Of a stretch of 64,000 bases of DNA, positions 3,880 through 42,309 are shown one piece after another (position 1 is the stretch's first letter; each line of letters opens with the position of its first letter). The position numbers and the translations under genes are program-made. Source of the stretch: Sinohyriopsis cumingii (taxonomy: Eukaryota > Mollusca > Bivalvia > Unionida > Unionidae); contig CM068842.1 in the NCBI GenBank assembly GCA_028554795.2, positions 25,330,590 through 25,394,589 of the forward strand, read 5' to 3'. Under the pieces are notes generated by a model, which was not told the origin of the DNA, did not search any database, and worked only from the letters and a program-made list of their open reading frames with translations.

Positions 3880-3926
3880 CTCTTGTCTTGTTTGTTTTTC
3901 GTGTCACAAGTGACATTTCTCATACC

Positions 3927-4670
3927 ATGGCTACCTCTGCTGTCTCTGCTCCCTCTTCCTCTACTGTCAAAGTCATCGACGAACACTTAGATCGTGCCAG
4001 TTCGGAGGCTTTGTATCTTCGCCATCCCTTTAACATGCTCATTGCTGGACCTAGCGGTTCAGGCAAAACCGAATTCGTCAAACGTTTCATCGAACATAAA
4101 CATCATTTGATCGATCGGCCCCCTCAACGAATCGTGTGGTGTTACAAAGAGTGGCAATCGGCGTACAGCCTCTTGCGAGAAAGTCAAGGCGATTCCATCG
4201 TGTTTGTGGAAGGCATTCCTAAAGAAGACGACGGCATCGTCTCTGACTCCCGTCTAACCCATTTGGTCATTTTCGACGACATGTTAGGAGAAGACGAAGA
4301 AGAAATTAAATTGTGGTTTACGCGCAAAGGGCATCACCGTAATGCCAGTGTCGTTTACATCACCCAAAATTTGTTTCAACAAAGTAAAGCCCATCGTACC
4401 ATCAGTCTCAATGCGCATTACGTGGTCTTGTTTAAAAGTCCTCGAGATAAATCGCAAGTGCAAGTCTTAGCCAAACAGTTAGGAACGCCTTGGCTGACTC
4501 AGGCGTACGACGATGCCACTCAAACGCCACACGCCTATTTACTCGTCGATTTGAAACCTACGACTCCCGAGGATTTGCGATTTCGTACCCACTTATTTCA
4601 CCACTGGTGCCAAGACGGAGGGCCTGTCCTGTACACGTCTCCGTCCTCGACTTCATTTCACTCCCCATGA
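3927..4670 (+). CDS. FtsK/HerA-type genome-packaging ATPase
   Basis: About 247 residues from the ATG at 3927 (perfect ACCATGG context). The frame is open to an earlier ATG at 3888, but that would sit too close to the TATA box. Walker A is GPSGSGKTE at residues 41-49. Walker B is LVIFDDML at about residues 113-120. The motif VVYITQN and a following Arg-rich stretch (HRTISLNAHYVVLFKSPRD) match the sensor and arginine-finger region of Polinton A32-like ATPases. The enzyme drives viral DNA into preformed capsids, so its presence implies virion formation. Length is typical. The gene is intact. Confidence 0.93.
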   Translation: MATSAVSAPSSSTVKVIDEHLDRASSEALYLRHPFNMLIAGPSGSGKTEFVKRFIEHKHHLIDRPPQRIVWCYKEWQSAYSLLRESQGDSIVFVEGIPKEDDGIVSDSRLTHLVIFDDMLGEDEEEIKLWFTRKGHHRNASVVYITQNLFQQSKAHRTISLNAHYVVLFKSPRDKSQVQVLAKQLGTPWLTQAYDDATQTPHAYLLVDLKPTTPEDLRFRTHLFHHWCQDGGPVLYTSPSSTSFHSP

Positions 4671-4678
4671 AAAAAATC

Positions 4679-5914: not shown

Positions 5915-5972
5915 TCCCAAAAAAGATAAAAGGGTGTGCGTTAAGTCATCGACGTTAGTGTCTGTTCGGTGA

Positions 5973-6380: not shown

Positions 6381-6429
6381 AAAGGCCTTCGGAAGTCCCA
6401 AGATCTCAGAATTCACCCCTGACAACCCC

Positions 6430-7143: not shown

Positions 7144-7159
7144 CACACCAACACAAAAA

Positions 7160-8272
7160 ATGGAAAAAATCTTAGCCAGCATTTACTACGATCCCTCGCA
7201 TCCTGCAGGTTACGCAGGAGTTCAAAAATTGTATCGTGCTGCCAAAACGCGACTGAAAAGTCTCCGTTTACCTCAAGTGCAACGATGGTTACAAGAACAA
7301 GCTACCTACACTTTACACAAACCCATTCGACGCAAGTTTGCCAGAAGTCGCACCCGAGTGGAAGGCATCGATCATCAATGGCAAGCCGATTTAGCCGATG
7401 TCTCTCATTTGGCCAGCTACAATCGTGGTTACAAATATTTGTTTTGTGTCATCGACGTCTTTTCCAAATTTGCGTGGGTCGTGCCCTTGACTTCCAAATC
7501 GAGCAGCGAGTTAGTGCGAGCCCTGCAACGGGTGTTGAAACAAAGTGGTTGTCACCCTCTTCGATGGCAAACGGACAAAGGCACCGAATTTCTGAACCAA
7601 GCTTTCCAAAAAGAATTAAAGAAACGTGACATTCATTTTTTTACCACCGAGAATCCCGAAACCAAAGCCAGCATCGTGGAACGTTTTCAACGCACTTTGA
7701 AGGAACGCATGTGGAAATATTTTACGCATCACCACACTCTGAAGTACATCGACATCTTACCGCACCTGGTGCAAGCGTACAACCAATCTTACCATCGAAG
7801 CATCGGACGTGCCCCGCAAGACGTGACCCCCGAGAACGAAGTGTTGGTGTTTGAGCGCCTGTTTGGTACGTCCCCGACGAGGGCTGTCCCCAAGAAAAGT
7901 GGAGAGTTGACCGTAGGAGATTGGGTGCGCATTGGCAAAACCAAACGCACTTTCGACAAAGGTTACTTACCTAACTGGACGACCGAATTGTTTCGCGTCA
8001 CTGGACGAGTGCATGGCCGTCATCCTGCCGTCTATAAATTGGAAGACATGAACGGAGAAGTACTCAAAGGAACGTTTTATTTGCCCGAGTTACAACGTGT
8101 CACCAAAAAAGAAGACGACGTGTACGACATCGAAAGCATTCTCGAACGCAGAACCCGTAAAGTGGGCAAACGACGTGTCAAAGAAGTCAAAGTACGTTGG
8201 AAAGGATATCCACCCAGTTTCGATTCTTGGATCGACGCTTCGCAAGTCATCGACTATAAAAAGAAGAAGTGA
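7160..8272 (+). CDS. Retroviral-type integrase with C-terminal chromodomain
   Basis: 370 residues. The DDE catalytic core is complete: D77 in WQADL, D139 in QTDKGTEF and E174 in SIVERF, spaced D-x34-E. An SH3-like region follows (~250-300). A chromodomain at about residues 313-365 has YDIESILERR and VKVRWKGYPPSFDSWI, the aromatic-cage region. Integrase inserts the linear genome into host DNA and makes a 6-bp duplication; the chromodomain probably directs the complex to methylated histones. The N-terminal zinc-binding HHCC region is not clearly seen. The reading frame is intact. A second, truncated copy of the same gene is in E3 (45223-45382). Confidence 0.95.
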   Translation: MEKILASIYYDPSHPAGYAGVQKLYRAAKTRLKSLRLPQVQRWLQEQATYTLHKPIRRKFARSRTRVEGIDHQWQADLADVSHLASYNRGYKYLFCVIDVFSKFAWVVPLTSKSSSELVRALQRVLKQSGCHPLRWQTDKGTEFLNQAFQKELKKRDIHFFTTENPETKASIVERFQRTLKERMWKYFTHHHTLKYIDILPHLVQAYNQSYHRSIGRAPQDVTPENEVLVFERLFGTSPTRAVPKKSGELTVGDWVRIGKTKRTFDKGYLPNWTTELFRVTGRVHGRHPAVYKLEDMNGEVLKGTFYLPELQRVTKKEDDVYDIESILERRTRKVGKRRVKEVKVRWKGYPPSFDSWIDASQVIDYKKKK

Positions 8273-8277
8273 CCATC

Positions 8278-8565
8278 ATGCCCTTTCACACAGCAACAGA
8301 CGCAGCTACGTCGACCACTCCTTCTTCCCCTAGTTCTTCTGTGCAAGATTTACAAAAACAACCCTTGTGGGTGTGGTGTGGAGAACGTGTGCCTAAAACG
8401 CAAATCGTCTTTTTCTGCCAATTCTCCTCGAACGGGAACGTTGTGTCCAGTGCCAGTGCCAGTCACCACTCCAACAACCACAACCAGAACCCCATTTTGG
8501 GCGGAGAGACACCTCTGACATCCACTAATATTCCCTCAGACAGCCACAGAACTCTGGAATTATGA
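8278..8565 (+). CDS. Small Polinton protein that has lost its transmembrane region
   Basis: 95 residues from the ATG at 8278; an upstream in-frame GTG at 8269 is less likely. The homologue in E3 (44812-45216) has 43 extra residues after FFCQ, containing two hydrophobic spans (TFVVYCVIGAAIANL and LWTIVLSSYIGYLL). In E1 these are missing by a clean in-frame deletion at 8421/8422, so the E1 product should be soluble. The flanks (PLWVW.G.RVPKTQIVFF and a Ser/Asn-rich tail) are conserved between copies. It overlaps the penton start by ATGA. The family is a common small membrane protein of animal Polintons next to the penton gene; function unknown. Confidence 0.7.
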   Translation: MPFHTATDAATSTTPSSPSSSVQDLQKQPLWVWCGERVPKTQIVFFCQFSSNGNVVSSASASHHSNNHNQNPILGGETPLTSTNIPSDSHRTLEL

Positions 8566-9506
8566 GTCACCAAAACCAATTTTACTTAACCTTACCCAGT
8601 GACAGTTCCATGGAGGTGTTTCCCAACAACACGTTGTGCTGTTACACGGCCAAATTACCTCAAGCCATCCCCTTAGATCACGAAGCCCATTGGGAAGTGG
8701 CTTTAGTAGAAATGATTCACCCGACCCAAGTTCTCAATGTCGTTGCCAATCAAAATAAATTTGATGTGGAAGTTTATGACGAACAAATACAACAGTGGAT
8801 GGATACCCATAGCAAATATAAGCATAAAACCCCTAACACAAAAAATCGACATTACACCATCTATCACTTGTTCATTCCCCCAGGTTATTATTTTAGTGGT
8901 CAACATTTGGTCAACACCATAGCCACCAGGTTTAATGGCGTGTTTGGGGAAGCTTTTAAGAATGTCAAGAACAAAACTGTCACCCTGGAATACCACAAAA
9001 CAGCTCGTCGCTTCCTGATAAAATTTCCTGAGGATAAAATCATGGGTTTCTATTTTTGTGATGAATTGTTTGACATGTTGGGCGGTAACATGGAGATGAG
9101 GAAGAAAGTAGAACAACAAAAAAAACCCCCCGAATTATCAATCATTTACGACAACGAGTCTTTTGGCCAGTATTTTAATACCCCGGTAGAACTGAACCAA
9201 GGACTGAATTTGATGTTCGTGTATTTCGATGTGGTGGAATACAACGTGGTGGGACACACCTCCGTGCCGTTACTGCGTGTCATTCCTTTCAAAGTGGATT
9301 CTGCCGCAAACGCTGACGAGGAAGGTGGAAACACTTACCACGTCCACCGCGAATTTGTCCATCCTCACTATTTGCCGGTCAGCAAGTCGTATTTGGACAC
9401 GGTCAACATTACTATAAAAGGAGATTTGGGACAAAATATTCCATTCACCAAAGGAAAAGTCACGGTGAAACTCCATTTTCGAAAACGGTTCTCTCACGAC
9501 TCGTAA
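8562..9506 (+). CDS. Penton-like minor capsid protein (single jelly roll)
   Basis: 314 residues. It begins MSHQNQFYLTLPSDSSMEVFPNN, then has a WEVALVEMIHP block near residue 45, the hallmark N-terminus of Polinton/adintovirus pentons. A GYYFSGQHLVNTI segment near 108-120 and a conserved C-terminus (VTVKLHFRKRF) follow. The E3 copy at 43898-44815 is homologous over its whole length. The protein forms pentamers at capsid vertices. It is translationally linked by ATGA to the preceding ORF and 7 bp from the next gene, as in the late block of these elements. Intact. Confidence 0.92.
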   Translation: MSHQNQFYLTLPSDSSMEVFPNNTLCCYTAKLPQAIPLDHEAHWEVALVEMIHPTQVLNVVANQNKFDVEVYDEQIQQWMDTHSKYKHKTPNTKNRHYTIYHLFIPPGYYFSGQHLVNTIATRFNGVFGEAFKNVKNKTVTLEYHKTARRFLIKFPEDKIMGFYFCDELFDMLGGNMEMRKKVEQQKKPPELSIIYDNESFGQYFNTPVELNQGLNLMFVYFDVVEYNVVGHTSVPLLRVIPFKVDSAANADEEGGNTYHVHREFVHPHYLPVSKSYLDTVNITIKGDLGQNIPFTKGKVTVKLHFRKRFSHDS

Positions 9507-9513
9507 GTAAGTC

Positions 9514-9930
9514 ATGTATCCAGTGTACCGAGGGGTTGCACGACAGCGAGGACACGGTTTAGGAGACATGTTAAAATCGGCCTTTCGTTCAGTGGCTCCG
9601 GTGTTGAAACCGATGGTGACACGCGGATTGCACGCCTTGAAAGATGCGGCACTGACGCAAGGCAAAGAATTTCTCCAAAATGTCATCATCGACAAACAAA
9701 ACCCTAAAGAAGCCTTCATGAGGGCTGGCAAAAATGTCTTGCTGCAAACGGGAAAAGACATTTTAGGCCGACGAGACACACCTATAAATGCCCTGCACGC
9801 TACCGAGTCAGGCATTCAGCAAGGACAAGGCAGAAAGAGACGACGAAGAAAACACCCTTTCACCAGACTTCAAGCTAGAAAGGCCAAGAAAAGAAGAACC
9901 GTTCGAGACTTAGACGTTTTCGATTATTGA
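9514..9930 (+). CDS. Basic core/pVI- or pX-like virion protein
   Basis: 138 residues. The N-terminus is Arg/Gly-rich, then HGLGDMLKSAFRSVAPVLKP forms an amphipathic segment (residues ~13-33) similar to small core or membrane-active proteins that recur between penton and MCP genes in Polintons. Residues 105-128 are strongly basic (GRKRRRRKHPF...KAKKRR), suggesting DNA binding or nuclear import. The final residues are acidic/aromatic (DLDVFDY). The likely role is packaging or endosomal escape; assignment is by position and composition. The gene is absent from E3, where the whole region is deleted. Confidence 0.7.
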   Translation: MYPVYRGVARQRGHGLGDMLKSAFRSVAPVLKPMVTRGLHALKDAALTQGKEFLQNVIIDKQNPKEAFMRAGKNVLLQTGKDILGRRDTPINALHATESGIQQGQGRKRRRRKHPFTRLQARKAKKRRTVRDLDVFDY

Positions 9931-9943
9931 GAAAGAGAAAAAA

Positions 9944-11275
9944 ATGATGCACCGAGAGTCTTGCGCTTGTTCCAAGACGGAACTGGATCTGTTTGCCATG
10001 CCCCCCACGATGATGACCATGCAAGAATCCCAGTGGGTGGAATTTAATCCCATCTCCACATTGACCGATTCTGCTCCCATCGAATTTGAAATCAAAGGAC
10101 AGCCCGAAGATTACATCGATCTGAATAGCAGTTACCTGTACTTGAAAGTCAAAGTAACCGAAGCGAACAACGTTGCCATAGACAATGATGATGTAGTAGC
10201 TCCCGTCAACAATTTCATGCATTCCTTGTTTAGCGAAGTGGACTTGTACTTGAATAACAAACTGGTCAGCAGCAGCATGGATACTTACCCTTATCGAGCG
10301 TACCTGGAAAATCTCTTGACGTACGGAAAAGAAGCCAAGAACACTCATCTGGATGCTTGCGTGGTATGGAAACCTGACCAAGCGGATAGGTTCAACAAAG
10401 TTACAATTGTTGATGGGGAGAATCCAAATACAACGGGATTTGTAGAACGAAGAAAGAAAATTCATCTAAGTCGTAGTTTAGAACTGATGGATCGCTTGCA
10501 TTTGGACATGTGGTTACAAGAAAAGTATTTGCTGAACGGGGTGGATGTCCGCCTGAGACTGAATCGTAGCAGTGCCGCTTTCCATTTGATGGCTGGTGCT
10601 GATGCCACTTACAAAACCAGCATCGAAGAAGCCAAACTTTACGTGCGTCGTGTGGAAGTGTTACCTAAAGTAGGTAACGACATCAGTCAGACATTGAGCA
10701 GAACAACCGCCAAGTATCCCATACGACGCGTGGAAGTGAAAACGTTCACCATTGCCTCTGGACTCCGATCCAAGATCGAAGATCATCTGTTCCAAGGACA
10801 GTTACCCAAACGTTTGATTGTTGGTATCGTCAAGAATTCAGCTTTCAATGGTGTCTATAACGAAAATCCTTTTCAGTTTCAACATTACAGAGTGTCCAAG
10901 ATCGAAGTCAGTCGCGACGGCAAGACCTTGTGTACCCGACCTTTCGAACCTGTCTTTCATGCCGCCGATAGGACTAAGTCGAATTACTTGAGATCGTACT
11001 TGTCCCTGTACGAAGCCACCGGACAGTTAGGAACTAACACCAGTCACGGCATTACGTACGACGAATATGACGGAGGCTATGCTTTGTGGGCTTTCGATTT
11101 CACTCCTGACCAAGGCAGCGACGAGGGACATTTCCACCCTATAAAATCTGGCCAGATTCGTGTGGAACTTCAGTTTGCGAGTGCTCTACCAGAGACGGTG
11201 AACGTCCTCCTGTATGCAGAATTCGATAATACCATAGAAATCAACAGTTTGAGAGAAGTCATTCTAGATTATTAG
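9944..11275 (+). CDS. Double-jelly-roll major capsid protein (hexon-like)
   Basis: 443 residues, the usual size for Polinton MCPs. Typical features are the N-terminal block WVEFNPISTLTDSAPIEFEI, the YIDLNSSYLYLKVKV strand, an FMHSLFSEVDLYLNN block, and a C-terminal IRVELQFASALPETVNVLLYAEF strand pair. It forms trimeric capsomers of the icosahedral shell. The start at 9944 follows the preceding stop by 13 bp with an A-rich leader. Intact and next to penton and protease genes, so the element can be expected to encode a virion. The C-terminal 50 residues are conserved in a fragment in E3. Confidence 0.95.
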   Translation: MMHRESCACSKTELDLFAMPPTMMTMQESQWVEFNPISTLTDSAPIEFEIKGQPEDYIDLNSSYLYLKVKVTEANNVAIDNDDVVAPVNNFMHSLFSEVDLYLNNKLVSSSMDTYPYRAYLENLLTYGKEAKNTHLDACVVWKPDQADRFNKVTIVDGENPNTTGFVERRKKIHLSRSLELMDRLHLDMWLQEKYLLNGVDVRLRLNRSSAAFHLMAGADATYKTSIEEAKLYVRRVEVLPKVGNDISQTLSRTTAKYPIRRVEVKTFTIASGLRSKIEDHLFQGQLPKRLIVGIVKNSAFNGVYNENPFQFQHYRVSKIEVSRDGKTLCTRPFEPVFHAADRTKSNYLRSYLSLYEATGQLGTNTSHGITYDEYDGGYALWAFDFTPDQGSDEGHFHPIKSGQIRVELQFASALPETVNVLLYAEFDNTIEINSLREVILDY

Positions 11276-11281
11276 AAAGCC

Positions 11282-11788
11282 ATGGAAGACTGTTATCCCT
11301 CTTTACAAAGTGGAGAAACTTTGGACATGGAATGTGAGGAGACCGTGGAAGGAGAAGAATCTCAAGACAAAGACGAAGAAGATATCATAATGAAGTCGAG
11401 ATGGCCAGAACAAGAAGCCCATTTAGTCTCCTGTTTTGCCAAACACTTGGTCGACAAAATAACGGAATTGATCAAGAAAAATTGCTATGGATGTCAAAAC
11501 GATCATCCCAGTCAAATTCAACACGATAAATGCCTGATGTTAAGTCAAGAAGAAAAATTGGACGAGTATCTGGACGAAGCTTGGAGTCTCATCTCGAACA
11601 AAGACGTGTTGCACCAGTGGTATAAAGACTTGCGTGAACATTCTTGTCCACCATTAACCACTCAAGAGATCCATCGTATCGAAGCTCTCCTGAATCAGAG
11701 TGAGGAAACAGAACGAATAACCGTTTATTCGTCAGACATTTTCAAGCAAAAAGTCAGGATCGAATTGACGACGTATTATTACCTGTGA
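11282..11788 (+). CDS. Acidic/helical protein of unknown function between MCP and protease
   Basis: 168 residues, no recognised family. Residues 1-40 are highly acidic. The rest is predicted helical and has a CYGCQNDHPSQIQHDKC cluster (Cys/His, possibly metal binding), a YLDEAWSL block, and the C-terminal IFKQKVRIELTTYYYL. It starts 6 bp after the MCP stop and ends 27 bp before the protease, so it is probably in the same late transcript. The E3 homologue (43214-43719) keeps the Cys/His cluster and C-terminus closely, which argues for a constrained function. Possible roles include MCP chaperone or protease cofactor (inference). Confidence 0.6.
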   Translation: MEDCYPSLQSGETLDMECEETVEGEESQDKDEEDIIMKSRWPEQEAHLVSCFAKHLVDKITELIKKNCYGCQNDHPSQIQHDKCLMLSQEEKLDEYLDEAWSLISNKDVLHQWYKDLREHSCPPLTTQEIHRIEALLNQSEETERITVYSSDIFKQKVRIELTTYYYL

Positions 11789-11815
11789 AGAAGAAGAAGA
11801 AAAAAACACAAAACA

Positions 11816-12376
11816 ATGGATACCTGGGAACTTTATTACCTTTTGAACCACAGTTCGTATACGTCTTCTTGGAATCCTGTCGTCTGTGCTAAAGATGAAC
11901 TCCCTCATCGCAAACCTAAAGACCATCAAGCTTACGTGATCAACACGGACGACAGTCATCTCCCAGGAACCCACTGGGTAGCCGTCTACTTTCCTCAAGA
12001 AGGATGTGTGGAATATTTCGATTCGTACGGATTGCCCCCTTTGGAAGACGATATCATCGACTTTATGAGAAGAAATGCTCAAACCACCCGATTCAATAAC
12101 GTGAAATTACAAGGCACAGATTCCTTGGTGTGTGGACAATACTGTGTGTATTTTCTGCATCATCGCAGCCTGGGCTATTCCTTAGAACATTTAGTGACTC
12201 ATTTCGATCCTCGTTCTTCTGCTAGAAACGATGTGAAAGTAGATCGATGGTTTTGTGACCATTATGCTTATCTTTTGTCTCAAGCTAGGAAACGTAGTGT
12301 CCATCAATGGCCTAATGATTTCCAACAGTGGAAATCACAATTTCATTCACAACGTTGTCAGCCCTGTTCAAAGTAG
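11816..12376 (+). CDS. Adenain-like (Ulp1 fold) capsid maturation cysteine protease
   Basis: 186 residues, close to the 200 of adenovirus protease. The catalytic triad can be placed: His53 in GTHWVAVYF, Asp69 in EYFDSYG (Glu in adenovirus), and Cys106 in VCGQYCVYFLHH. The Gln expected in the oxyanion hole is probably Gln99 just upstream. The enzyme cleaves core and capsid precursors during virion maturation. The start at 11816 is in an A-rich leader (ACACAAAACAATGG). It is the last gene of the structural block and is followed by a conventional AATAAA signal. The E3 copy has two nonsense codons; this copy is intact. Confidence 0.94.
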   Translation: MDTWELYYLLNHSSYTSSWNPVVCAKDELPHRKPKDHQAYVINTDDSHLPGTHWVAVYFPQEGCVEYFDSYGLPPLEDDIIDFMRRNAQTTRFNNVKLQGTDSLVCGQYCVYFLHHRSLGYSLEHLVTHFDPRSSARNDVKVDRWFCDHYAYLLSQARKRSVHQWPNDFQQWKSQFHSQRCQPCSK

Positions 12377-12607
12377 ATTGAGAATTGAGAAAAAAATGTT
12401 TGTGATTTGAAAAAAATTGTTTGATGTTATAGTGTTATATTATTGTTAAAAATGTTGTTGTTTAGTGTTAAGTGATTTTTGAATAAAAAATGTTGTGTTT
12501 AGAAAAAAAATGCCTTTGTCTTTTGTTTAGCTAGAAGAATGTTGGATTGATGCTCTTTCATTTCTTACTATCCCTCTCATGAACGTTGTGGCTCGAAAAC
12601 CGTGTGG
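12377..12607 (+). terminator. 3' region of structural gene block with polyadenylation signal
   Basis: An A/T-rich, G/T-rich stretch without ORFs. AATAAA at 12482-12487 is followed by GT-rich sequence (GTTGTGTTTAG, then TTTGTCTTTTGTTT), the arrangement of a normal metazoan poly(A) site. The E3 copy preserves the AATAAA on the minus strand at 42532-42537. No stem-loop of the type found after the next three genes is seen here. Confidence 0.55.
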
Positions 12608-12643
12608 GGATGTTTTCCTTCACGTCCGCGCTTTAACTTTAAG
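12608..12643 (+). promoter_or_regulatory. Shared promoter box, cassette 1
   Basis: GATGTTTTCCTTCACG followed by TCCGCGC, then TTTAAG as a weak TATA element 7-8 bp later, about 54 bp before the ATG at 12697. Nearly the same box occurs at 13479, 14257 and 14328 in E1 and five times in E3, always upstream of right-end genes or ORFs. Confidence 0.7.
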
Positions 12644-12696
12644 AACCGGGTTGTTCCCAGTCTAGCCATCCATTGTCAACTCATCCTCCTAAGAAG

Positions 12697-13065
12697 ATGT
12701 GCTCCAAACTAGCTAAGCTCAACGAAGCCTACGTGAATTTGCATAGGGTCAGACACAGTCTGATACCGAAGCCAGAAGAAATAGAGAATGTGAGAATGTT
12801 AAAAATCACTGAAGACCTGATAGAAGAGCTCTTCAGAGAAGAAATGAACAGGGAGAAAGAAGAATGGACAGAGAAGTACAGACTTCAGAGACAGCAGCAA
12901 CAGCAGCAACAGCAGCAACAACAGCAACAGCAACAGCAACCTGAAGCTGACAGAGGCTTTGTCGATTGTCGTATCGACACCAAAGAATTCTTCTTCTCTT
13001 TCCGAAGAAGCAGACCTATTGCCAGAAAGTCTATCCTCAGAGGACATCGCATTCTTAGAAACTAA
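12697..13065 (+). CDS. PolyQ charged helical protein, cassette 1
   Basis: 122 residues from the ATG at 12697; the in-frame TTG at 12673 is not a likely start. The N-terminal ~70 residues are helical with Leu heptads and charged stretches (IEELFREEMNREKEEW). A tract of about 16 Gln follows, encoded by mixed CAG/CAA, then a basic C-terminus (RRSRPIARKS). No known family. The E3 homologue (41872-42309) has a much shorter Gln tract. It has its own upstream promoter box and a histone-type stem-loop 29 bp after the stop, so it is an independent transcription unit. Confidence 0.68.
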   Translation: MCSKLAKLNEAYVNLHRVRHSLIPKPEEIENVRMLKITEDLIEELFREEMNREKEEWTEKYRLQRQQQQQQQQQQQQQQQQPEADRGFVDCRIDTKEFFFSFRRSRPIARKSILRGHRILRN

Positions 13066-13094
13066 AAAAGAATGCCATAGCAAAACAAAAAAAC

Positions 13095-13136
13095 AGCCCT
13101 TTTCAGGGCTACCCAATACTCTAGAAAAGAAATAAC
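13095..13136 (+). terminator. Histone-mRNA-type 3' stem-loop with downstream purine element, cassette 1
   Basis: Stem AGCCCT (13095-13100), loop TTTC, stem AGGGCT (13105-13110), then ACCCA (13111-13115). A purine-rich TAGAAAAGAAATAAC lies at 13122-13136. This reproduces the layout of replication-dependent histone mRNA 3' ends: 6-bp stem, UUUC-type loop, ACCCA flank, and an AAGAAAGA-like U7-pairing element about 12 nt further. The outer pair is A-T rather than the usual G-C. Confidence 0.7.
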
Positions 13137-13478
13137 TATTAATTTGCCAATGTGTAGGTAGAGTAGTGTGAAAATAAACACTAACTCTTTCTTAAAAAAT
13201 GTGAGGGTATGAGTTTGTGTGTTTGAAAGTGATAAAATAGGTTGGTGTGGATAGTAGATTAAAATGATGTTAGTTTTTTGGCTGTTAGAGGTATATATTT
13301 TCGGTTAGATTGGATTGGATTGCTTTGCGTATGTGGATAGTCAATTGAAGTGATTTATAAAAAAATTTTAAAATAGTAATGGGTAGCATAAAAAAGTGAG
13401 CGAGTGTTTCTTTTAGGTCCGCGCGTTGTTGTTGATTTTGGTCATGATCCAGGTAAGATCCATTTCATGTTATTAGGG
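13137..13478 (+). repeat. Inter-cassette spacer (copy 1)
   Basis: No ORF. The segments 13137-13215 and 13410-13478 are closely similar to 14065-14145 and 14275-14327 in the next spacer (shared AATTTGCCAATGTGTG, AAACACTAACTCTTTCTTAA and GGTCATGATC blocks). It also contains AAAAAAGTGAGCGAGTGTTTC at 13391-13411, which is found in E3 upstream of a broken gene (minus strand, 41680-41770). This suggests a gene was lost here in E1. The block CCAGGTAAGATC looks like a splice donor but no intron is evident. Confidence 0.6.
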
Positions 13479-13514
13479 GGATGTTTTCCATCACGTCCGC
13501 GCTTTCACTATAAA
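13479..13514 (+). promoter_or_regulatory. Shared promoter box, cassette 2
   Basis: GATGTTTTCCATCACG then TCCGCGC, with a proper TATAAA at 13509-13514, 54 bp before the ATG at 13568. Confidence 0.72.
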
Positions 13515-13567
13515 TTGAAACTCGCTGGGCAGTCTAGCTACCCTTGTTGATTGATCAACAGTAAAAA

Positions 13568-13996
13568 ATGAGCAACAGACTGACTAAATTGATGGAACTT
13601 CAGATGCATCTGGAGTATGCCAGATACCTACTGAACGAGCTGACTGCGGAGGCCCTTTTGGAAGAAGTGAGAATAGAACAGGAGGAGGAGGAGAGAAAAA
13701 TGAAAGAAGAGAATGAAAGAAAGAGAGAGATCAGGTGTCACCCTATGATGAACCCTGTGTGCAAGGTGATACCTGAGGCAAGGACATCTTGCCAGCCTGT
13801 AGCTGAACCACAATCACAACGAAGACAAAGACAAAGAAGACAGAGGGAAGAAGTGTTCACTATTCCGCAAACGGAGGAGTGGGATAGTGAAGCCACTCAC
13901 CCACCGTCTGCTCTTCAAACAAGTCATGTGAATTGGACTAATGATTGGAGTAGACGTTGTGTCTGTGGTGCCAGACCCGGAAGGTGCCACCATTAA
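13568..13996 (+). CDS. Charged helical protein, cassette 2
   Basis: 142 residues, not recognised. Residues 1-30 have Leu heptads (MSNRLTKLMELQMHLEYARYLL). Residues 35-60 are Glu/Lys/Arg-rich coiled coil. Then come a Gln/Arg-rich basic stretch (QSQRRQRQRRQREE) and a C-terminus ending with two Cys (RRCVCGARPG). The architecture (short leucine-zipper-like start, charged coil, Q/R-rich segment) is like the genes on either side, suggesting distant paralogy. Promoter box with TATA 54 bp upstream and histone-type stem-loop 26 bp after the stop. Confidence 0.62.
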   Translation: MSNRLTKLMELQMHLEYARYLLNELTAEALLEEVRIEQEEEERKMKEENERKREIRCHPMMNPVCKVIPEARTSCQPVAEPQSQRRQRQRRQREEVFTIPQTEEWDSEATHPPSALQTSHVNWTNDWSRRCVCGARPGRCHH

Positions 13997-14022
13997 CCAA
14001 GGCCTCTGAAGTTAAAAAAAAC

Positions 14023-14064
14023 AGCCCTTTTCAGGGCTACCCAATACTCAAGAAAAGAAATAAC
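14023..14064 (+). terminator. Histone-mRNA-type 3' stem-loop, cassette 2
   Basis: AGCCCT-TTTC-AGGGCT at 14023-14038, ACCCA at 14039-14043, purine element AAGAAAAGAAATAAC at 14050-14064. Identical in stem and loop to the cassette 1 element. It contains CAAGAAAAGA, close to the sea-urchin-type CAAGAAAGA. Confidence 0.72.
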
Positions 14065-14256
14065 CATCAATTTGCCAATGTGTGTAGGTAGAGTAGTGTG
14101 AATATAAACACTAACTCTTTCTTAAAAATGTGAGGGTATGTGTTTGTGTGATTGTGTTAGTAAGAGCTGAGGTATGTTTGTGTGAATAGTAGATTATGGG
14201 TTTCTTAGCGTATGTGAAGAGTATAGTTAGGGTTTTATTGTATGAAAAAAGTAGGG
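14065..14256 (+). repeat. Inter-cassette spacer (copy 2)
   Basis: No ORF on the + strand. It starts with the same AATTTGCCAATGTGTGTAGG block as copy 1, but is shorter and lacks the middle segment. Confidence 0.55.
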
Positions 14257-14280
14257 GGATGTTTTCCTTCACGTACGCGC
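14257..14280 (+). promoter_or_regulatory. Shared promoter box, extra upstream copy for cassette 3
   Basis: GATGTTTTCCTTCACG then TACGCGC, 48 bp before a second box at 14328. No TATA or ORF directly follows, so it may be a duplicated upstream element or the relic of a lost cassette. Confidence 0.6.
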
Positions 14281-14327
14281 GTTGTTGGGTCATGATCTAG
14301 GTAAGATCGATTTTATGTTTTTTAGGG

Positions 14328-14363
14328 GGATGTTTTCCTTCACGTTCGCGCTTTTCGTATAAG
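14328..14363 (+). promoter_or_regulatory. Shared promoter box, cassette 3
   Basis: GATGTTTTCCTTCACG then TTCGCGC, with TATAAG at 14358-14363, 50 bp before the ATG at 14413. Confidence 0.7.
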
Positions 14364-14412
14364 AACCCACAGTGTTGGTCGTTCAAACCATTCTGCAAAG
14401 AATAAAAAGAAG

Positions 14413-14793
14413 ATGGCGTCAAACCAAATGGACAAATTACAAACCTTGCAAGACGTTTTAGACAACTTAGGAATAATGGAACAGATGCTAATAAGACTCG
14501 TTGAAGACCATTATTCCTATAGTCCCCATCGTGTAAAGATGGAAATTAACAATTTAAGGAAAGCAAAGGACAAGATTAGTGGTGTCATGAAAGAGATCAA
14601 GGAGGAGAAGGAGGATGAAGAGGAAAAGATAAGAATAAGAACATGGAACGAAAAAATTGAAAAAGAAGAGGAAAATGAGAAGAGGAAGAAAGAAGAAGAG
14701 GAGGAAGAGAAGAAAGAAGAGAAGGAGAAAAAAAAGAAGAGAAAGAGTGTTGGAGATAAAATAAGAAGTTGGTGGAGGAAAAGAAGAAATTAG
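14413..14793 (+). CDS. Glu/Lys-rich coiled-coil protein, cassette 3
   Basis: 126 residues. Residues 1-60 are helical with a hydrophobic pattern (MDKLQTLQDVLDNLGIMEQML). Residues 65-126 are almost purely Glu, Lys and Arg, ending KIRSWWRKRRN. No family is recognised and low complexity makes database comparison uninformative. Support for being real comes from context: promoter box with TATA 50 bp upstream and a near-perfect histone-type stem-loop 23 bp after the stop. Confidence 0.6.
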   Translation: MASNQMDKLQTLQDVLDNLGIMEQMLIRLVEDHYSYSPHRVKMEINNLRKAKDKISGVMKEIKEEKEDEEEKIRIRTWNEKIEKEEENEKRKKEEEEEEKKEEKEKKKKRKSVGDKIRSWWRKRRN

Positions 14794-14815
14794 AAGAAGA
14801 AGAAGAAAACCCAAA

Positions 14816-14856
14816 GGCCCTTTTCAGGGCCAGCCATATTTCTCGAAAAGAGATAG
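14816..14856 (+). terminator. Histone-mRNA-type 3' stem-loop, cassette 3 (canonical stem)
   Basis: CCAAA precedes GGCCCT-TTTC-AGGGCC at 14816-14831, then AGCCA, then CGAAAAGAGATAG at 14844-14856. Stem, loop and 5' flank agree with the metazoan histone consensus, including the outer G-C pairs. The stem differs from the other two by two compensating changes (A-T to G-C outer pair), which supports selection on pairing. Confidence 0.75.
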
Positions 14857-14884
14857 CCTTTTGAATTGCCTACCCCTTTTTTAA

Positions 14885-15128
14885 AAAATTTAAAGAAAAA
14901 AAATCCCATGTTCAATTCTCCTTGTCCCTAAACAAGCCCAAACTCTATTCCCATGTTAAATTCCCCTTGTCGCTAAAGTGTCCCACGATTTTTCGCCATG
15001 TTAATTCCCCTTGTCGCTAAAGTGTCCCACGATTTTTCTCCATGTTAAATTTCCATTGTCGCTAAAGTGTCCCAAGGGTGTTTTTAATGCTAATTCCCAT
15101 TGTCGCTAAAGTGTCCCCCTTCACTACT
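14885..15128 (+). repeat. Subterminal ~46-bp tandem repeats and right terminus of E1
   Basis: Five imperfect units of the form CATGTTAAATTCCCCTTGTC + GCTAAAGTGTCCCACGATTTTT, ending in TTCACTACT. E3 carries homologous repeats at both ends (35768-36110 and 49590-49907) with the same last bases, so this is the TIR end and probably the integrase or terminal-protein recognition region. Confidence 0.8.
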
Positions 15129-15480
15129 GATAAACGGACAACAAGAACCAACAGAAAATATACAACTAAATTATGAACAGAATCGTATAGGACGTGCATA
15201 TCATCGTTTAATGTCATTCATGGGACGTGATAAAAATGTTGATACTGGATTGCAAATATCACAATATGATTTCAGAACTTTGTATCCGATTTATTATTTT
15301 TCACTGGAACATCTTGATCTATCAAAACAATCTGTCGTTGATGTACATCTTAAAGCAACATTGAATACAGGTGGTGCTAATTATAGAGCAATCGCGGTCA
15401 TACTCAGCGATGAAGCCATGTTAATTGAAGGTGGTAGTGGTCGAATGAGAGTCGTTGATGCACCAGTGGAAAATCTCTAA
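15129..15480 (+). pseudogene. Major capsid protein, C-terminal fragment cut by E1 insertion
   Basis: About 117 codons in frame from the junction. The first ~10 codons of the longer ORF beginning at 15100 come from the E1 terminus and are not part of the gene. The segment has the MCP C-terminal pattern: YDFRTLYPIYYFSLEHLDLS, then SVVDVHLKATLNTGG and YRAIAVILSDEAM, comparable to the last ~110 residues of the E1 MCP but of a different lineage. The 5' part should lie on the far side of E1. The remainder is open to the stop. Confidence 0.75.
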
Positions 15481-15920: not shown

Positions 15921-16343
15921 CAAAAAATAGGGACGCGGTCTAAGATTACCGGGATCTCGCTGGGGAAAAGGTCCAAGGCTCCCACGTTAGATGTTCCAGC
16001 ATCAAATTTTGATTTACTTGATGCTGCTAAGCGATTAAAAATAAAAGCCTTTAGAGGTGTTTTTACGCGGAATCAATTACCAAAACAACCAAACAAACTC
16101 GAAACAGGTATTATTAATCTCGACGAACGTTCCGGACCTGGTACTCATTGGGTATCATACGCGGTTGATCCACGTGGAATCGTTTATTTTGATTCATACG
16201 GGTTAGCCCCACCTGCTGAATTTATCAAATATATCGCACCACTTCACGCAAGAACCAGAGGTTCCAAAGTTTGGTATTCAACGCTACCCACACAAACAAC
16301 GACAGATCCGCCAATATGCGGCCGTGAATTAATGTATATAATG
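15921..16343 (+). pseudogene. Adenain-like cysteine protease, 5' end lost
   Basis: The frame with codons from 15921 is open and includes NFDLLDAAKRL, FRGVFTRNQLP, the His block GTHWVSYAV, the Asp block IVYFDSYG, and the Cys block PPICGREL. These are the three catalytic motifs in correct order and spacing for a Polinton protease. No ATG is available upstream in this frame; the normal 5' part sits in another frame with stops. The residues after the catalytic Cys (RELMYIM) are atypical, as GHLC or GQYC is usual. The frame then runs into the next gene without a stop. Confidence 0.7.
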
Positions 16344-17342
16344 GTTGATATTTACGGAAGAAGATCTTCCCGCGTTAAGAGAAAATCCGGCGATGTTGAT
16401 CTATCGAAGTATGCGACTAAAGATGAACTCGCTGATATCATGAATCTTGCTGGAGTTGATCCAGATGAGGTCGTTATTTTTCAAGATCGATATGGTAAAC
16501 TAAAAACGAGCAATATCAGATGGAATGATATAGTTCGACGAGTACTTGGTGCAGTTACGGATAATATTCCCGTGTTTACTGACGGTGGTAGAATCAGAGA
16601 TTCAAGTGTATCATTTGCAACAATTAGAAATGAAATTGCAAGAAGCGTTGCTAATCGCGTGAAAAATACCGGTGACACAATGACGGGTGAACTCAGCATG
16701 AACGGAAATAAAATAGTGGTTTTAAGAGATCCAACATCCGACGAAGATGCAGCAACAAAAAAATATGTCGACACCGTAGATGGTAAATTATCCACACTGC
16801 GGGCCGAGTATGACGTTCACGTGGGCGCTTTTGCAAGATTTCGCAGAAACCATCAAAGAACCGCAGAAGAATTCTTCGGCACTCCGCACTCCATTCACAT
16901 AAATCTCGTTGATATCAATACGAACATCGACACGATCAAACGAACACAGCAAGACATCGTAGCAGAGATTCCTGAGATCGTTAATAAAACCAATTTGATT
17001 AAAATTCCAGCCGGAATAACTCCCGGACATATCACAAACATCGTATGCACAGTATCATCGGGATTCACAACATGGTCGCAGCAAAATAAAACCATCAACT
17101 ATACCGCAACAATCACTGGCGTGTACAGGCTGTCTGTGTTCAGTGGTGCAAAATTTAAAATATTTACAACGTATCTATGGCGTCATTCAACGGATAGGTT
17201 TTCCGGGGTTGTATCTGTTATATTAAAAAGCGTAACCGAAGAAATATTTATTCTGGAAGCAGATGATGAAACGTTAGACTCAACATCTTACTGGTGGTGT
17301 TTGGAATTTGTAGCTGAAACACCTCAATTGTTTTCTGCATAA
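16344..17342 (+). CDS. Fibre-like protein with phage tail-fibre motif
   Basis: The start is taken at the ATG at 16344 (MVDIYGRR), a start type typical of the gene downstream of the protease in Polintons; the frame also continues upstream into the protease. About 332 residues. Residues 5-110 include KYATKDELADIM. At 16671-16772 there is GDTMTGELSMNGNKI followed by DAATKKYVD, the motif repeated in bacteriophage tail fibres (trimeric shaft). A coiled stretch follows, and the last ~120 residues are beta-rich with a YWWCLEFVAETPQ end, like a receptor-binding head. Probable role: vertex fibre or host attachment (inference from family logic). Confidence 0.6.
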   Translation, partial: VDIYGRRSSRVKRKSGDVDLSKYATKDELADIMNLAGVDPDEVVIFQDRYGKLKTSNIRWNDIVRRVLGAVTDNIPVFTDGGRIRDSSVSFATIRNEIARSVANRVKNTGDTMTGELSMNGNKIVVLRDPTSDEDAATKKYVDTVDGKLSTLRAEYDVHVGAFARFRRNHQRTAEEFFGTPHSIHINLVDINTNIDTIKRTQQDIVAEIPEIVNKTNLIKIPAGITPGHITNIVCTVSSGFTTWSQQNKTINYTATITGVYRLSVFSGAKFKIFTTYLWRHSTDRFSGVVSVILKSVTEEIFILEADDETLDSTSYWWCLEFVAETPQLFSA

Positions 17343-17348
17343 AAATAT

Positions 17349-17627
17349 ATGGACGGTGCACAATACAGATACAATCAAGCGCGTGAATGGCAGGCGGCGC
17401 TAAAAGATCGAGTCGAACAATATACAGTAAAAGTACAAAAATATCGACGACGATTAGTTATCGTTGATGTGATTGTTTATTCGGTATCCGCTGTTGTTGC
17501 TGGAACCGGTGTTATAACATCAGCGGTGACAATGATGGCACCAGCAGCTGTAACTATTTGTATTTCATCAGCAACAACGATTGCAGGTGTGCTTAATATC
17601 ATCACAAAAAAATATGCACCTGCATGA
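17349..17627 (+). CDS. Small protein with central hydrophobic spans
   Basis: 92 residues, beginning MDGAQYRYNQAREWQAALKD: an amphipathic charged first third, then two adjacent hydrophobic segments (VIVDVIVYSVSAVVAG and APAAVTICISSATTIAG), then a short basic tail. It starts 6 bp after the fibre-like gene and its stop overlaps the next ATG. It could be one gene with the following ORF split by a frameshift, because the next ORF has the DGIISDVEF pattern seen downstream of such membrane domains in Polinton proteins. No function known. Confidence 0.5.
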   Translation: MDGAQYRYNQAREWQAALKDRVEQYTVKVQKYRRRLVIVDVIVYSVSAVVAGTGVITSAVTMMAPAAVTICISSATTIAGVLNIITKKYAPA

Positions 17628-17833
17628 ATGAAAAATTATCCGATTACATGATAAGATTTCATTCAGCGACGGTCGCATACTCGAAGTTATCTTCGTTGTT
17701 ATCAGCGAATCTCAGTGATGGAATTATATCTGATGTCGAGTTTTCAATGATGACTAAAATATACGACGAAGGTATCTGTATTAAAGACATAAATACTAAT
17801 AATGACAGAATTACTCCAGCAGATCGTGACTAA
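17624..17833 (+). CDS. Small helical protein, possibly the 3' part of the preceding gene
   Basis: 69 residues, with KLSSLLSANLSDGIISDVEFSMM resembling a helix-DGxISDEEF motif common in Polinton ORFs. It overlaps the ORF before by ATGA and the penton start (17802) at its end. Because the family motif normally follows a hydrophobic N-terminus in one protein, this may be a frameshifted continuation of 17349-17627. Confidence 0.42.
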   Translation: MNEKLSDYMIRFHSATVAYSKLSSLLSANLSDGIISDVEFSMMTKIYDEGICIKDINTNNDRITPADRD

Positions 17834-19181
17834 CACAACTCCGCCAAAGATAACGATGATCTCGGTAAGTTCAACTAATCCTGAATTTAGTATTAACTTT
17901 CCTACTGCAATTCCAGTAAAAGAAATTGCACTGGCTCAATTACGGGTATATTACAGCTGGCCAAATATCAGATCAAAATCATTTAATGGTACACCAGCAA
18001 ATAATTTGCTTGTATTTGCTAACAAGAACAAACCAGATGGTACTCCTGACTGGATAGATGTTGGAATACCCACTGGTAGTTATGAGATCGAACAAATCAA
18101 TGAGGAATTTCAACGTAGAATAAAATCAATAACCGGAAAAGAAGCAAAAATATCAATTAACGTTTATGAACCGACGCTGTCCTCGACGGTTGAGATACAT
18201 TCTCCTGATTATGCCGTAGATATTTATCAATCCACGATAAGATCCGTACTTGGTTGGCCTGAAATTCCCCCGGTGTATGAAGGACCACCAGAACCAAAAC
18301 GAGCTGATTTTATGTCAACAAGTAGCTCTCGTCACGATATTGAAATGAATTCAAATTGGTTAGATTATATAGAATTAAAACCAGAGGTGATAGGTGGAGA
18401 ACTTTATTATGATCCTGTACTTATTTCTTATAATCTTAATGGAAGTATTATTGCTTCGAATATTGATTCTATATTTTCTTCAATAAACTCAGACCATGCA
18501 ATACAGTTAAATAGTTTACGTGATAGTTTTCGGGAGTATTTATCTGATTTGACATCTGCGCGCGATAATATCATCAGGTACATGGAAGTTTTAAATTTTA
18601 TAGTTAATTCTTCTGAAAATATTTATAATAGAATTAGAGATGTAGTTCTTAAGTCATCAAGCGATTATAAAAAAATCCTTCACAGCCAAATACAAAATAT
18701 CCGAAGCTGATATTGCAACATTTAAGTTCCCTGATTATAATCCAGATAAATTAAGAAAATCTGTCAATGATGTCATTGCTGAATATTTTCCTAAAATACT
18801 CGATGCATGGAGAAAAGTAACATCACCTCCAACTGTTCTTAGACATAATAATGATCCACATGGCGGCGGCAGACACGTTCTCCGGGAATCGTTAACATAA
18901 CCAGCACGATCGTGGTCAATCTGGTTTGTGACGTAGTCGATGGCAGCTATCAAATACATCTCGGAAAATCAAATCAGGCTCAACAAGGATATATTTTATA
19001 TACATTTACACCACAAGTTCCCCCTGGAAGTTTAATCGTGCAAGAACCAACTAATCCTGTGTATCTGCGGTGTCACAATAATATGTTAACACGAATAAAT
19101 TTTAAGCTCACAGACCACCTTAATCGCTTAATTGACATGCGTGGAGAAGAGCTTGTGATAAATCTGTATGTGAAATCTTAA
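17802..19181 (+). pseudogene. Penton-like protein with inserted helical domain, frameshifted
   Basis: The ATG at 17802 opens MTELLQQIV, then FSINFPTAIPVKEIALAQLRVYYSWPNI, the penton N-terminal pattern, and DVGIPTGSYEIEQINEEF. The C-terminus is at 18912-19181, with LVCDVVDGSYQ, YTFTPQVPPGSLIVQEP and RINFKLTDHLNRLIDMRGEEL, the typical Polinton penton end. Between them (about 18300-18880) is a ~190-residue helical insertion not found in the E1/E3 pentons. The frame breaks near 18660-18710 and there is a TAA at 18898-18900, so the copy is dead. Strand and order agree with a late gene block. Confidence 0.7.
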
Positions 19182-19344
19182 TTAATCCAGTAAATGTTTT
19201 ATAATGTACTAGCACGTGATTGTTTTTTATACACTTAAAAAACGCCATCAGAACAGTGTTTTCAAAACACAGAGCAATTTAGTTATTGATGAATACGGAA
19301 GCGAGAACAGTTAGATGAGCTCCGCCGAGAACATATTATTGAGA
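19182..19344. other. AT-rich spacer after penton
   Basis: No ORF or repeat of note; AT-rich sequence leading into the tandem repeats. Confidence 0.4.
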
Positions 19345-19720
19345 TCAATTGGTACTTAAAATTATACAAATCAATCAGTTTGCTAATTCTGATGGGGTAA
19401 TTGGTACTTAAAAGTATACAAATTAATCAGTTTTCCAAAAAATACTACAAAAAAATATTGTATTATTATTCTGAAATATTTTTATTATTATTCTGAAATA
19501 TTTTATCCTTTGTGAATCAATCTGATGGGGTAATTGGTACTGAAAATTATACAAATCAATCAGTGCGCTAATTCTGATGGGGTAATTGCCACTTAAAAGT
19601 ATACAAATCAATCAGTGTGCTAATTTTGATGGGGGTGGTTGCTACTCAAAAGTATACAAATTAATCAGTTTTCCAAAAAATATTTTATTATTATTCTGAA
19701 ATATTTTATTTTTTATGTAA
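19345..19720. repeat. Degenerate ~50-bp tandem repeats
   Basis: The unit AATTGGTACTTAAAAGTATAC + AAATCAATCAGT + GCTAATTCTGATGGGG recurs near 19349, 19399, 19532, 19584 and 19637, with an AT-rich spacer holding TTATTATTCTGAAATATTTT between some units. Confidence 0.75.
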
Positions 19721-19929
19721 ATTAATTCTGATGTGATATACAGTGAGGGAAATTATATTACTACTCAGTCGTTACCCGCTGACATAATTTTTCTTAAGTA
19801 TCTTATGCGGGTACTGATTGTTTTTTTTTTTTTTTTTTTTTGTTTCGTATTCGCTGGATAATTCCGACCTGATCTTTTCTATTGCAACAGAAAGAGGAAT
19901 AAATTAATTTACTTGATCATCATTCACCA

Positions 19930-20105
19930 TAGCCAAACATATATTATGAAATGAACTTCTATTCGAGTTTTTTTAGCAAGTTCATTAAGTATCAATGAAA
20001 TGGGTATGTACAATGAATGAATGACGGCACAAACATATATTATGAAATGAACTTCTATTCGAGTTTTTTAGCAAGTTCATTAAGTATGAAATTAAATATA
20101 TACAA
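19930..20105. repeat. Direct duplication of ~60-95 bp
   Basis: AACATATATTATGAAATGAAC + TTCTATTCGAG, a T-run and AGCAAGTTCATTAAGTAT are present twice, near 19936-19991 and 20032-20085, with GACGGCACAAACATAT also repeated. A (T)18 run lies at about 19823-19841. Confidence 0.7.
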
Positions 20106-20129
20106 TGAATAATTGAATAAAGGACGGCA

Positions 20130-20378
20130 CAAACATATACGCTCAGCAAAAACCCACCCACAATAATCAAGCCCGTGGGTTATACGAAAATATGTATCAA
20201 CCACCGGTTGATACGTGGTTGAGTTTTGCTGAGCGGAGGGGCTTTTTGCTGCCGCCCCCCAATTATTATAAAAATCGCAATTATGCACAAATCACCGACA
20301 TGTTGTCAGCCATGGGGATTCGATCCTGGACCGCGAGCGTCACAGTCCAATACCATACCGACTGAGCTATCAAATCTT
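20130..20378 (-). repeat. tRNA-derived SINE-like sequence with hairpins
   Basis: On the minus strand TAGCTCAGTCGGTA (A box) and GGATCGAATCC (B box) lie in tRNA-like spacing near 20372-20315, followed by a body to about 20130. The body has perfect inverted repeats: GTATCAACC/GGTTGATAC (20194-20214) and CTCAGCAAAA pairs near 20131 and 20224. The acceptor stem is not paired, so it is not a functional tRNA gene. A direct repeat flanking it was not identified. Confidence 0.45.
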
Positions 20379-21054
20379 GTTACAAACATATGCTTCGGAA
20401 GTTAATATATAGCTAAGGAACTAATTTCGAATAATACAATTCTGAATTCAAGAAATACGTTTATGTTATATATTTTCACCAAACAAAGCTAAATTAAGGA
20501 ATTTCCTATTTACTATACCACGCCATGTATGATAGAACATCCGGTCTTATATCATCTAATTGCCAGATTTTTCCATCCTCTCTATTACTCGATAAATAAA
20601 TAATCACACATACATACACAATCTCGCATTATATTTCTGCACTGAACAAAGAAAATGCAACTGATTTTTAATTCCAAATACTATCATGGACCTACGAGTC
20701 TGTACATTGTACATTGGATCTAAAATTAACCCGCCACGATCGATACAGACTAGACGCTGGATTCTGCACTCAGTAGGACGGAATATACGTGTCGGTTTTC
20801 TGGAGGTTAGATGAAATATACATGTATTCTATATGTTGCGCTGTTCTAATAGGGCAGAAAATACACGAACTGTATATTTTTATAAGTTAGAAATCATAAA
20901 TCAATTCTGTGATGCATACTGTTCAACTGACCTTGGATGTTATAGCCATAAATTACTTCCCTTTTATGAGTAAAAAAATAAGTAGTATAATAATGACAAT
21001 TTCTGACCCCCCCCCAAAAATAAATATAATTCGAGATGGTGATGATAGTTAACA
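20379..21054. other. Non-coding AT-rich interval
   Basis: No ORF of note on either strand and no clear repeat. A C-run (CCCCCCCCC) occurs at about 21007. Confidence 0.4.
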
Positions 21055-21546: not shown

Positions 21547-21635
21547 ATATGCAATAATATTATTTGTTCAAATCATTGTTTGTCTGAAATCTTGATATAT
21601 AATCCTCCACGGATTTTACAGCGTTTTCACTATTA

Positions 21636-21860: not shown

Positions 21861-21904
21861 TGTATATATATAATTTTCTTTATTTAAATATTTGTTTTAA
21901 TTAT

Positions 21905-41690: not shown

Positions 41691-41871
41691 AAAAAAAAAC
41701 CGCACAAACCTAAAAGAAACACTCACTCACTTTTTTACAGAACATCACTATTTTTAAAATTTTGATAAGCGACGGAAACGAAGGACTTAGAGTCGCACTT
41801 TCTAACCAAGATAAAGAAATCATGTGCTGATAGACTCACTTCTGTATTTTTTCTTCTAACTGACTAACATA

Positions 41872-42309
41872 TCATAGACAATGGAATGTTATTTCTTTTC
41901 GAGAGTATGGGGTAGCCCTGAAATTTTTTTTTTGGAACTTGAAGCTATGGCGATCGCTTATGTTATAAGATGGCGGCCTCCTCTGACGACAGGCTTTCTC
42001 ACAGGATAAGGTCTGCTTCTTCGGAAAAGAGAAGAAGAACTCTTTGGTGTCGATACAACTGTTGACAAAGCCTCTGTCAGGTTCATGCTGCTGCTGTTGC
42101 TGCTCTCTCTGCTGTTTATGAAGTCTGTACTTCTCCATCCATTCTTCTTTCTCCTTCTTGAATTCCTCCTTGAAGAGCTCTTCTTTCAGGTCTTCAGTGA
42201 CTTTTAGCATTCTCACATTTTCTATCTCTTCTGGCTTCGGTATCAGACTGTGTCTGACCCTATGCAAATTCACGTAGGCTTCGTTTAGCTTAGCTAGTTT
42301 GGAGCGCAT
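41872..42309 (-). CDS. Charged helical/polyQ protein, E3 copy
   Basis: Minus strand from the ATG at 42309 (MRSKLAKLNEAYVNLHRV). The first ~110 residues are homologous to the E1 gene at 12697, but the Gln tract is short and interrupted (QQREQQQQQ). The C-terminus diverges by a frameshift after FFFSFPKK, and the ORF reads through the place of the 3' stem-loop. The loop's 5' arm is replaced by an A-run, so both protein end and RNA signal are damaged. The promoter box lies at 42375-42397. Confidence 0.55.
   Translation of the reverse strand: MRSKLAKLNEAYVNLHRVRHSLIPKPEEIENVRMLKVTEDLKEELFKEEFKKEKEEWMEKYRLHKQQREQQQQQHEPDRGFVNSCIDTKEFFFSFPKKQTLSCEKACRQRRPPSYNISDRHSFKFQKKNFRATPYSRKEITFHCL
41897..41930 (-). 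terminator. Degenerate histone-type 3' stem-loop of E3
   Basis: On the minus strand TTTCAGGGCTACCCCATACT + CTCGAAAAGAAATAAC retains the loop, 3' arm, ACCC flank and purine element. The 5' arm is replaced by A residues, so no stem can form. Confidence 0.55.

Follow-up and report, generated by a model that had tools for sequence, protein, structure and literature searches.

Accessory genes of a Polinton-type element in the genome of the bivalve Sinohyriopsis cumingii end in the stem-loop and purine-rich downstream element typical of histone genes, and three of them are also preceded by sequence shared with the histone promoters of the host. Most of the element occupies positions 1 to ~15 kb of the stretch of DNA analysed here, 64,000 nucleotides of contig CM068842.1 (25,330,590 to 25,394,589, forward strand; henceforth termed the window), with its left end lying outside. 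The usual assumption about viruses and transposons is that they rely on ordinary polyadenylation (poly(A)) signals or on signals of their own. The sequence evidence presented here makes it very probable that these Polinton genes have working histone-type 3′ ends, and that the genes we call accessory genes 1–3 stand under the host's S-phase histone programme at the levels of both transcription and RNA processing.

Histone-type 3′ ends of three accessory genes

Accessory genes 1–3 are positioned 3′ of the protease gene of the element, all on the forward strand, at 12697..13065 (gene 1, MCSKLAKL..., with an open reading frame from a TTG at 12673 and its first ATG at 12697), 13568..13996 (gene 2) and 14413..14793 (gene 3, encoding a highly charged protein). 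An earlier note made from the letters of the window had assigned histone-type ends to these three genes, and its coordinates, stems, flanks and downstream elements are all confirmed. On the sense strand, 29, 26 and 22 nt past the respective stop codons, lie 6-bp stems with a TTTC loop: AGCCCT-TTTC-AGGGCT at 13095..13110 and again at 14023..14038, and GGCCCT-TTTC-AGGGCC at 14816..14831, with the flanks ACCCA, ACCCA and AGCCA. Scored against the Rfam covariance model Histone3 (RF00032, gathering cut-off 34 bits; E-values computed for 30 kb), the third stem-loop exceeds the cut-off (35.6 bits, E 5.5e-7), and the first (31.0 bits, E 3e-5) and second (31.3 bits, E 2.2e-5) fall close below it. Each stem is followed by a GAAAAGA element, at 13124..13130 (in the context CTAGAAAAGA), 14052..14058 and 14845..14851; its distance from the stem, previously given as about 8–13 nt, is uniformly 13 nt.

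The 3′ regions of genes 1 and 2 (13087-13198 and 14015-14128) are duplicates of one another with 96-98% identity, so the window provides two independent observations of the stem-loop. Searching for a simple 14-nt pattern and tolerating 3 mismatches says little by itself (6 matches in the window versus 2.3 expected); the weight rests on the three exact matches and the covariance scores. The loop core CTTTTCAG does not occur within 300 nt of the stop codon of any other element gene in the window. Loss of the signal is illustrated at 41850..41940 on the reverse strand, where the 3′ end of gene 1 recurs in decayed form: the loop, 3′ arm and GAAAAGA are kept and the 5′ stem arm is gone.

Comparison with the histone genes of the host

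The tandem histone repeat of the host measures ~8.3 kb, and one unit (loci L059 and L060) comprises H3, H4, H2B, H2A and H1. All five genes end in an RF00032 stem-loop of 35.0-39.4 bits, with GGCCCT/AGGGCC stems or, in H1, GGTCCT/AGGACC. GAAAAG follows the stem after 13 nt in H3, H4 (offset counted by eye) and H2B and after 14 nt in H2A and H1. The context CTAGAAAAGA of gene 1 recurs in four of the five host genes (H3, H4, H2B and H1). H2A also has a looser TTTGCCA-like stretch ~32 nt past the stem, of which similar forms occur in H3, H4 and the element. Since the element and the host histone genes share the 13-14 nt offset, the placement of the downstream element is in keeping with the host's own processing machinery. 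The architecture attributed by the earlier note to SLBP and U7 is thus, as far as sequence goes, that of the host's own histone genes. RF00032 scores are higher in the element (up to 45.6 bits) than in these genes.

Histone promoter sequence upstream of genes 1–3

A comparison of window positions 1-15200 with the 8.4 kb of the host histone unit gave as its longest exact matches stretches of 24 nt and 21 nt and a 17-nt stem-loop, followed by 16 nt at 8268; a control window (15200-40000) gave 16 nt at most, in simple repeats only. Both promoter matches stand upstream of gene 2. The 21 nt at 13407..13427 (TTTCTTTTAGGTCCGCGCGTT) are identical to the host H4 promoter, and the 24 nt at 13480..13503 (GATGTTTTCCATCACGTCCGCGCT), which a TATA box follows, to the host H2B promoter; the same promoter core is found in host H1 and, on the opposite strand, in host H2A. 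Histone-promoter-like elements also precede gene 1 (12606..12631, GGGGATGTTTTCCTTCACGTCCGCGC, with TCACGTCCGCGCT common to the host H1 promoter) and, in two copies with 1 mismatch each, gene 3 (14255..14280 and 14326..14351, the second followed by TATAA), all of them on the forward strand.

Across the genome, the exact H2B-type core occurs 30,300 times and the 19-nt H4-type core 9,328 times, totals that take in host histone genes and for which element membership was checked in eight of eight sampled H4-type occurrences only; the reversed-pattern controls gave 0. In all eight sampled copies the H4-type core lies 5′ of gene 2 with at most 1 mismatch. The shared promoter sequence lends independent support to a coupling of the element to the histone programme.

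The GGTCCGC or ACGTCCGC of the shared cores resembles what we take to be a HiNF-P site. According to the review PMC5706932, NPAT is brought to H4 promoters at the G1/S transition by HiNF-P, which attaches to the subtype-specific element of H4, whereas H2B genes of mammals rely on Oct-1.

Retention of the signals in other copies

The 2.9-Gb host genome contains many related elements. A genome-wide RF00032 search, in which 75 of 589,472 first-look candidates were scored, placed all 75 over the threshold (best 45.6 bits). Those inspected (54 of the 75) all lie 3′ of genes of this element family, and none of nine histone peptide tags was found in any of 48 longer loci around the matches. The gene types with a stem-loop are window genes 1–3, a variant of gene 3 termed acc4, and two short genes of unknown function named MTET and MWTD by their first residues. 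The latter two diverge from a gap of ~220 bp, an arrangement similar to that of a divergent histone gene pair, and both end in a histone-type stem-loop (locus L039, 3087-3307; also L003, L010, L013, L016 and L037). By eye, the gap appears somewhat H2A-promoter-like, with TATAAATA and ATTGG boxes. In L013 the MWTD/MTET module is tandemly duplicated, and each MWTD copy has its own stem-loop. A protease gene that seemingly used a stem-loop (L032, 2672-3670, reverse strand) was rejected: the frame fuses the protease with acc4, as if the two had been joined by a deletion, and the stem-loop is that of acc4 itself.

In the fetched loci, 58 of 61 gene copies with 700 nt of downstream sequence carry a stem-loop that was not itself the bait of the search (3 copies truncated at the end of their locus are left out); the decayed copy in the window is one further miss beyond this count. 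A sample blind to the stem-loop was drawn from a capsid search, in which 95 copies were scored of 28,681 candidates (89-100% identical, 88 of the 95 without stop codons). Every tenth copy of its list was taken (n=9), and 2.1 kb were read where the three genes were expected. Eight of the nine have all three stem-loops, each of the 24 at no more than 1 mismatch; Rfam recovers 23 of these at E<=0.01, and for 5 the score exceeds the gathering cut-off. In the ninth (L077), the 2.1 kb read lack all three genes, along with their stem-loops and promoters. Retention after the same genes, named by the earlier note as a test of its proposal, is therefore the rule among copies in this genome, and the covariance scores, above or near the cut-off, favour the proposal as well. 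The reading of these ends as histone-type is supported at the sequence level, and the shared promoter sequence and the wider gene set with the divergent MTET/MWTD pair extend it beyond the earlier observation.

GAAAAGA or a one-base variant follows the stem in 104 of 109 element copies, 97 times at 13 nt and 7 times at 14 nt. Within gene types, the 16-nt stem-loop has a mean column identity of 0.97-0.99 and the next ~45 nt one of 0.89-0.94, compared with 0.64-0.91 over the 30 nt that lead up to the stem-loop and 0.66-0.88 at +46 to +110. Because the copies are related and mostly young, this profile supports selection and does not prove it. Similar restraint applies to the outer base pair of the stem, whose compensating change had been put forward as a sign of selected pairing. 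The change is real across copies: among 115 assigned stems (112 bait or free and 3 from the window), 18 are AGCCCT..AGGGCT and 76 GGCCCT..AGGGCC, and a few show a one-sided intermediate. It separates gene types, however, and may be one inherited change, which makes it modest evidence alone.

Poly(A) signals

The structural block upstream, which the earlier note had contrasted with the accessory genes, does have an ordinary signal, an AATAAA 105 nt past the protease stop, at 12482. No gene type has AATAAA or ATTAAA within 200 nt 3′ of the stem-loop more often than shuffles predict (observed copies versus shuffles: gene 1, 2/9 versus 1.9; gene 2, 0/16 versus 2.9; gene 3, 4/13 versus 4.8; acc4, 2/8 versus 2.9; MWTD, 8/33 versus 13.0; MTET, 6/30 versus 16.6). 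Gene 1 of the window also has an AATAAA 107 nt past its stop, at 13173.

Gene content of the element and its surroundings

Besides the accessory genes, the element comprises the end of a PolB-like gene (the part lying in the window, a weak match to PF03175 at 18.5 bits against a cut-off of 25.8), two BIR (inhibitor of apoptosis) genes (866-1324 and 1384-2121), and, on the forward strand, an A32-type packaging ATPase (3888..4670, PF04665 over cut-off), an rve integrase with chromodomain (7160..8272, PF00665 and PF00385 over cut-off), a double-jelly-roll major capsid protein (9944..11275, assigned by model and fold search) and an adenain-like protease (11816..12376, a weak match below cut-off), the last gene ahead of the AATAAA. 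The capsid model (pLDDT 79.6, pTM 0.83) has as fold matches the major capsid proteins of Sputnik and mavirus. Named relatives of the capsid protein are from bivalves (46-54% identity), and the protein database also contains relatives at 80% identity. The top viral match in the fold search is the Cotesia sesamiae Mombasa bracovirus protein R9XLG5 (35% identity), which suggests a Polinton relic within a bracovirus record. One accessory protein has 20 relatives in the protein database, and family searches gave no informative match for the accessory proteins.

Several further features were observed in the window. A duplicated stretch lies 3′ of the BIR genes (2139-2348 and 2607-2816, 85% identical). 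Directly 3′ of the last stem-loop, at 14904-15129, stands a CCATGTTAAATTCCCCTTGTCGCTAAAGTGTCC-like minisatellite; similar sequence follows stem-loops in other element copies, and the minisatellite recurs in both arms (35751-36103 and 49572-49908) of two 4.5-kb inverted repeats (35768-40296 and 45383-49907, mutual identity 99.6%). The arms enclose the decayed remains of a second, incomplete copy of the element (40900-45400, reverse strand). An apparently different element with helicase-like, HNH and rve integrase genes comes next to the first one, at 16300-27300, and its integrase region has a weak mir-9460 match (26052-26119, 43.8 bits against a cut-off of 85).

Discussion

In the explanation that we favour, host SLBP would bind the stem-loop of element transcripts and the host U7 small nuclear ribonucleoprotein would pair with the downstream element, so that cleavage just 3′ of the stem-loop would yield mRNAs without poly(A). 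Genes 1–3 would be driven by promoters with core sequences of host H2B, H1 and H4, and the combination of histone-type promoter and 3′ end would cause them to be made mainly in S-phase cells, presumably to the benefit of the element. As guesses at what the accessory products do, they might be regulators that act early, or basic proteins made alongside the DNA in order to package it. The model for these steps is the replication-dependent histone gene of metazoans, known for RF00032 stem-loops and SLBP/U7 processing. What the element has in common with such genes of this host is the stem-loop with its flanks, the downstream element at the same spacing, and the promoter cores of H2B, H1 and H4; it differs in that its genes are non-histone genes in a mobile virus-like element.

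Several results weigh against this explanation. Two of the three window stem-loops score under the RF00032 gathering cut-off. In 9 copies, the promoter cores are barely more conserved than their surroundings (0.98-0.99 versus 0.89-0.94). The H2B-type core is absent within 1200 nt of the divergent MTET/MWTD pair in all copies searched (0/63), and it accompanies gene 1 in 4 of 9 copies, some loci beginning too late to tell. In 6 of 30 MTET and 3 of 8 acc4 copies, an AATAAA or ATTAAA stands in the 60 nt that precede the stem-loop. The U7 snRNA of the host was not found: RF00066 gave no match, as was also the case in control genomes, and a pattern combining a GAAAAGA complement with a U7-type Sm site matched the genome 37 times, versus 63 for the reversed pattern. 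The best-pairing candidate among the 10 of these 37 that were read was dropped as a decayed reverse-strand copy of the element. IMG/VR contains no exact match to the stem-loop motif, and the stem-loop is absent in four of four distant Polintons (L049-L052; 26-45% capsid identity), from symbiont or metagenome-assembled genome contigs, some labelled Escarpia and Bathymodiolus symbionts; for L049, only ~1.3 kb beyond the capsid gene could be covered. A capsid search of viral contigs found no related element.

The earlier expectation that the motif would recur in related elements is accordingly borne out by copies in the same genome and not by the distant ones. Polintons (Mavericks) and adintoviruses have in common with the window element the A32 ATPase, rve integrase, double-jelly-roll capsid and adenain-like protease, and unlike it the four distant relatives lack the stem-loop. 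Because of this absence, the trait is, on present evidence, specific to a lineage and not general to Polintons. Within the literature searched, we came across no description of histone-type promoters or 3′ ends in works on Polintons or adintoviruses that also mention histones and stem-loops, searches on histone stem-loops in viruses or transposable elements returned nothing similar, and the works consulted on the genes of animal viruses and on transposons of bivalves leave histone-type ends unmentioned.

Chance inverted repeats were ruled out by the covariance scores, the fixed spacing, the retention in copies and the identity with host histone signals. The alternative that survives best retains the molecular steps of the favoured explanation and differs from it only in tissue and timing. 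Here, the histone-type ends and promoters would serve expression in the egg and early embryo, favouring germline spread, with somatic S-phase coupling secondary. Eggs and early embryos are rich in SLBP and histone mRNA, the sequence evidence is the same as for our explanation, and so numerous a family (9,328 exact H4-type cores, with all eight sampled located in elements) requires germline activity; we regard this possibility as real but rather unlikely. Much less can be said for the idea that the element captured pieces of histone genes and carries their signals as functionless passengers. A single capture could indeed yield a promoter and a 3′ end that are both histone-derived, but the sequence between the two showed no histone coding region, the signals flank several unrelated genes at fixed spacing, and they are intact while neighbouring sequence diverges, all being kept in 8 of the 9 unselected copies, which renders a passenger origin very improbable.

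Intergenic GC-rich inverted repeats are generally able to act as terminators, origins or recombination sites, yet it is scarcely credible that DNA elements merely resembling histone ends would match the pattern of the same host's histone genes in TTTC loop, flanks, GAAAAGA at 13 nt and orientation, and lie on the sense strand shortly past a stop codon. We attach equally slight weight to a transfer of the signals from the element to the host histone genes or to a chance resemblance between them: the higher scores of the element stem-loops indicate that these are no poorer copies, but stem-loop and downstream element are ancient in animals, as the Rfam consensus also reflects, and chance would by no means account for identical runs of 24 and 21 nt when 15.2 kb are compared with 8.4 kb.

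Returning to the favoured explanation, we consider it likely that a virus-like transposon present in very many copies has appropriated both the histone promoter and the histone 3′ processing of its host. Its transcripts would then arise at histone locus bodies, be processed by SLBP and U7 and be confined to S phase. Non-polyadenylated mRNAs made in S phase would tie a mobile DNA element to host replication, a connection for which we found no description in the parts of the literature searched. If so, RNA sequencing of poly(A)-selected material would miss these transcripts and make the elements look silent. The family would also represent a natural experiment, in which genes for other proteins have histone promoters and 3′ ends by the thousands, and which could reveal which parts of these signals are under selection.

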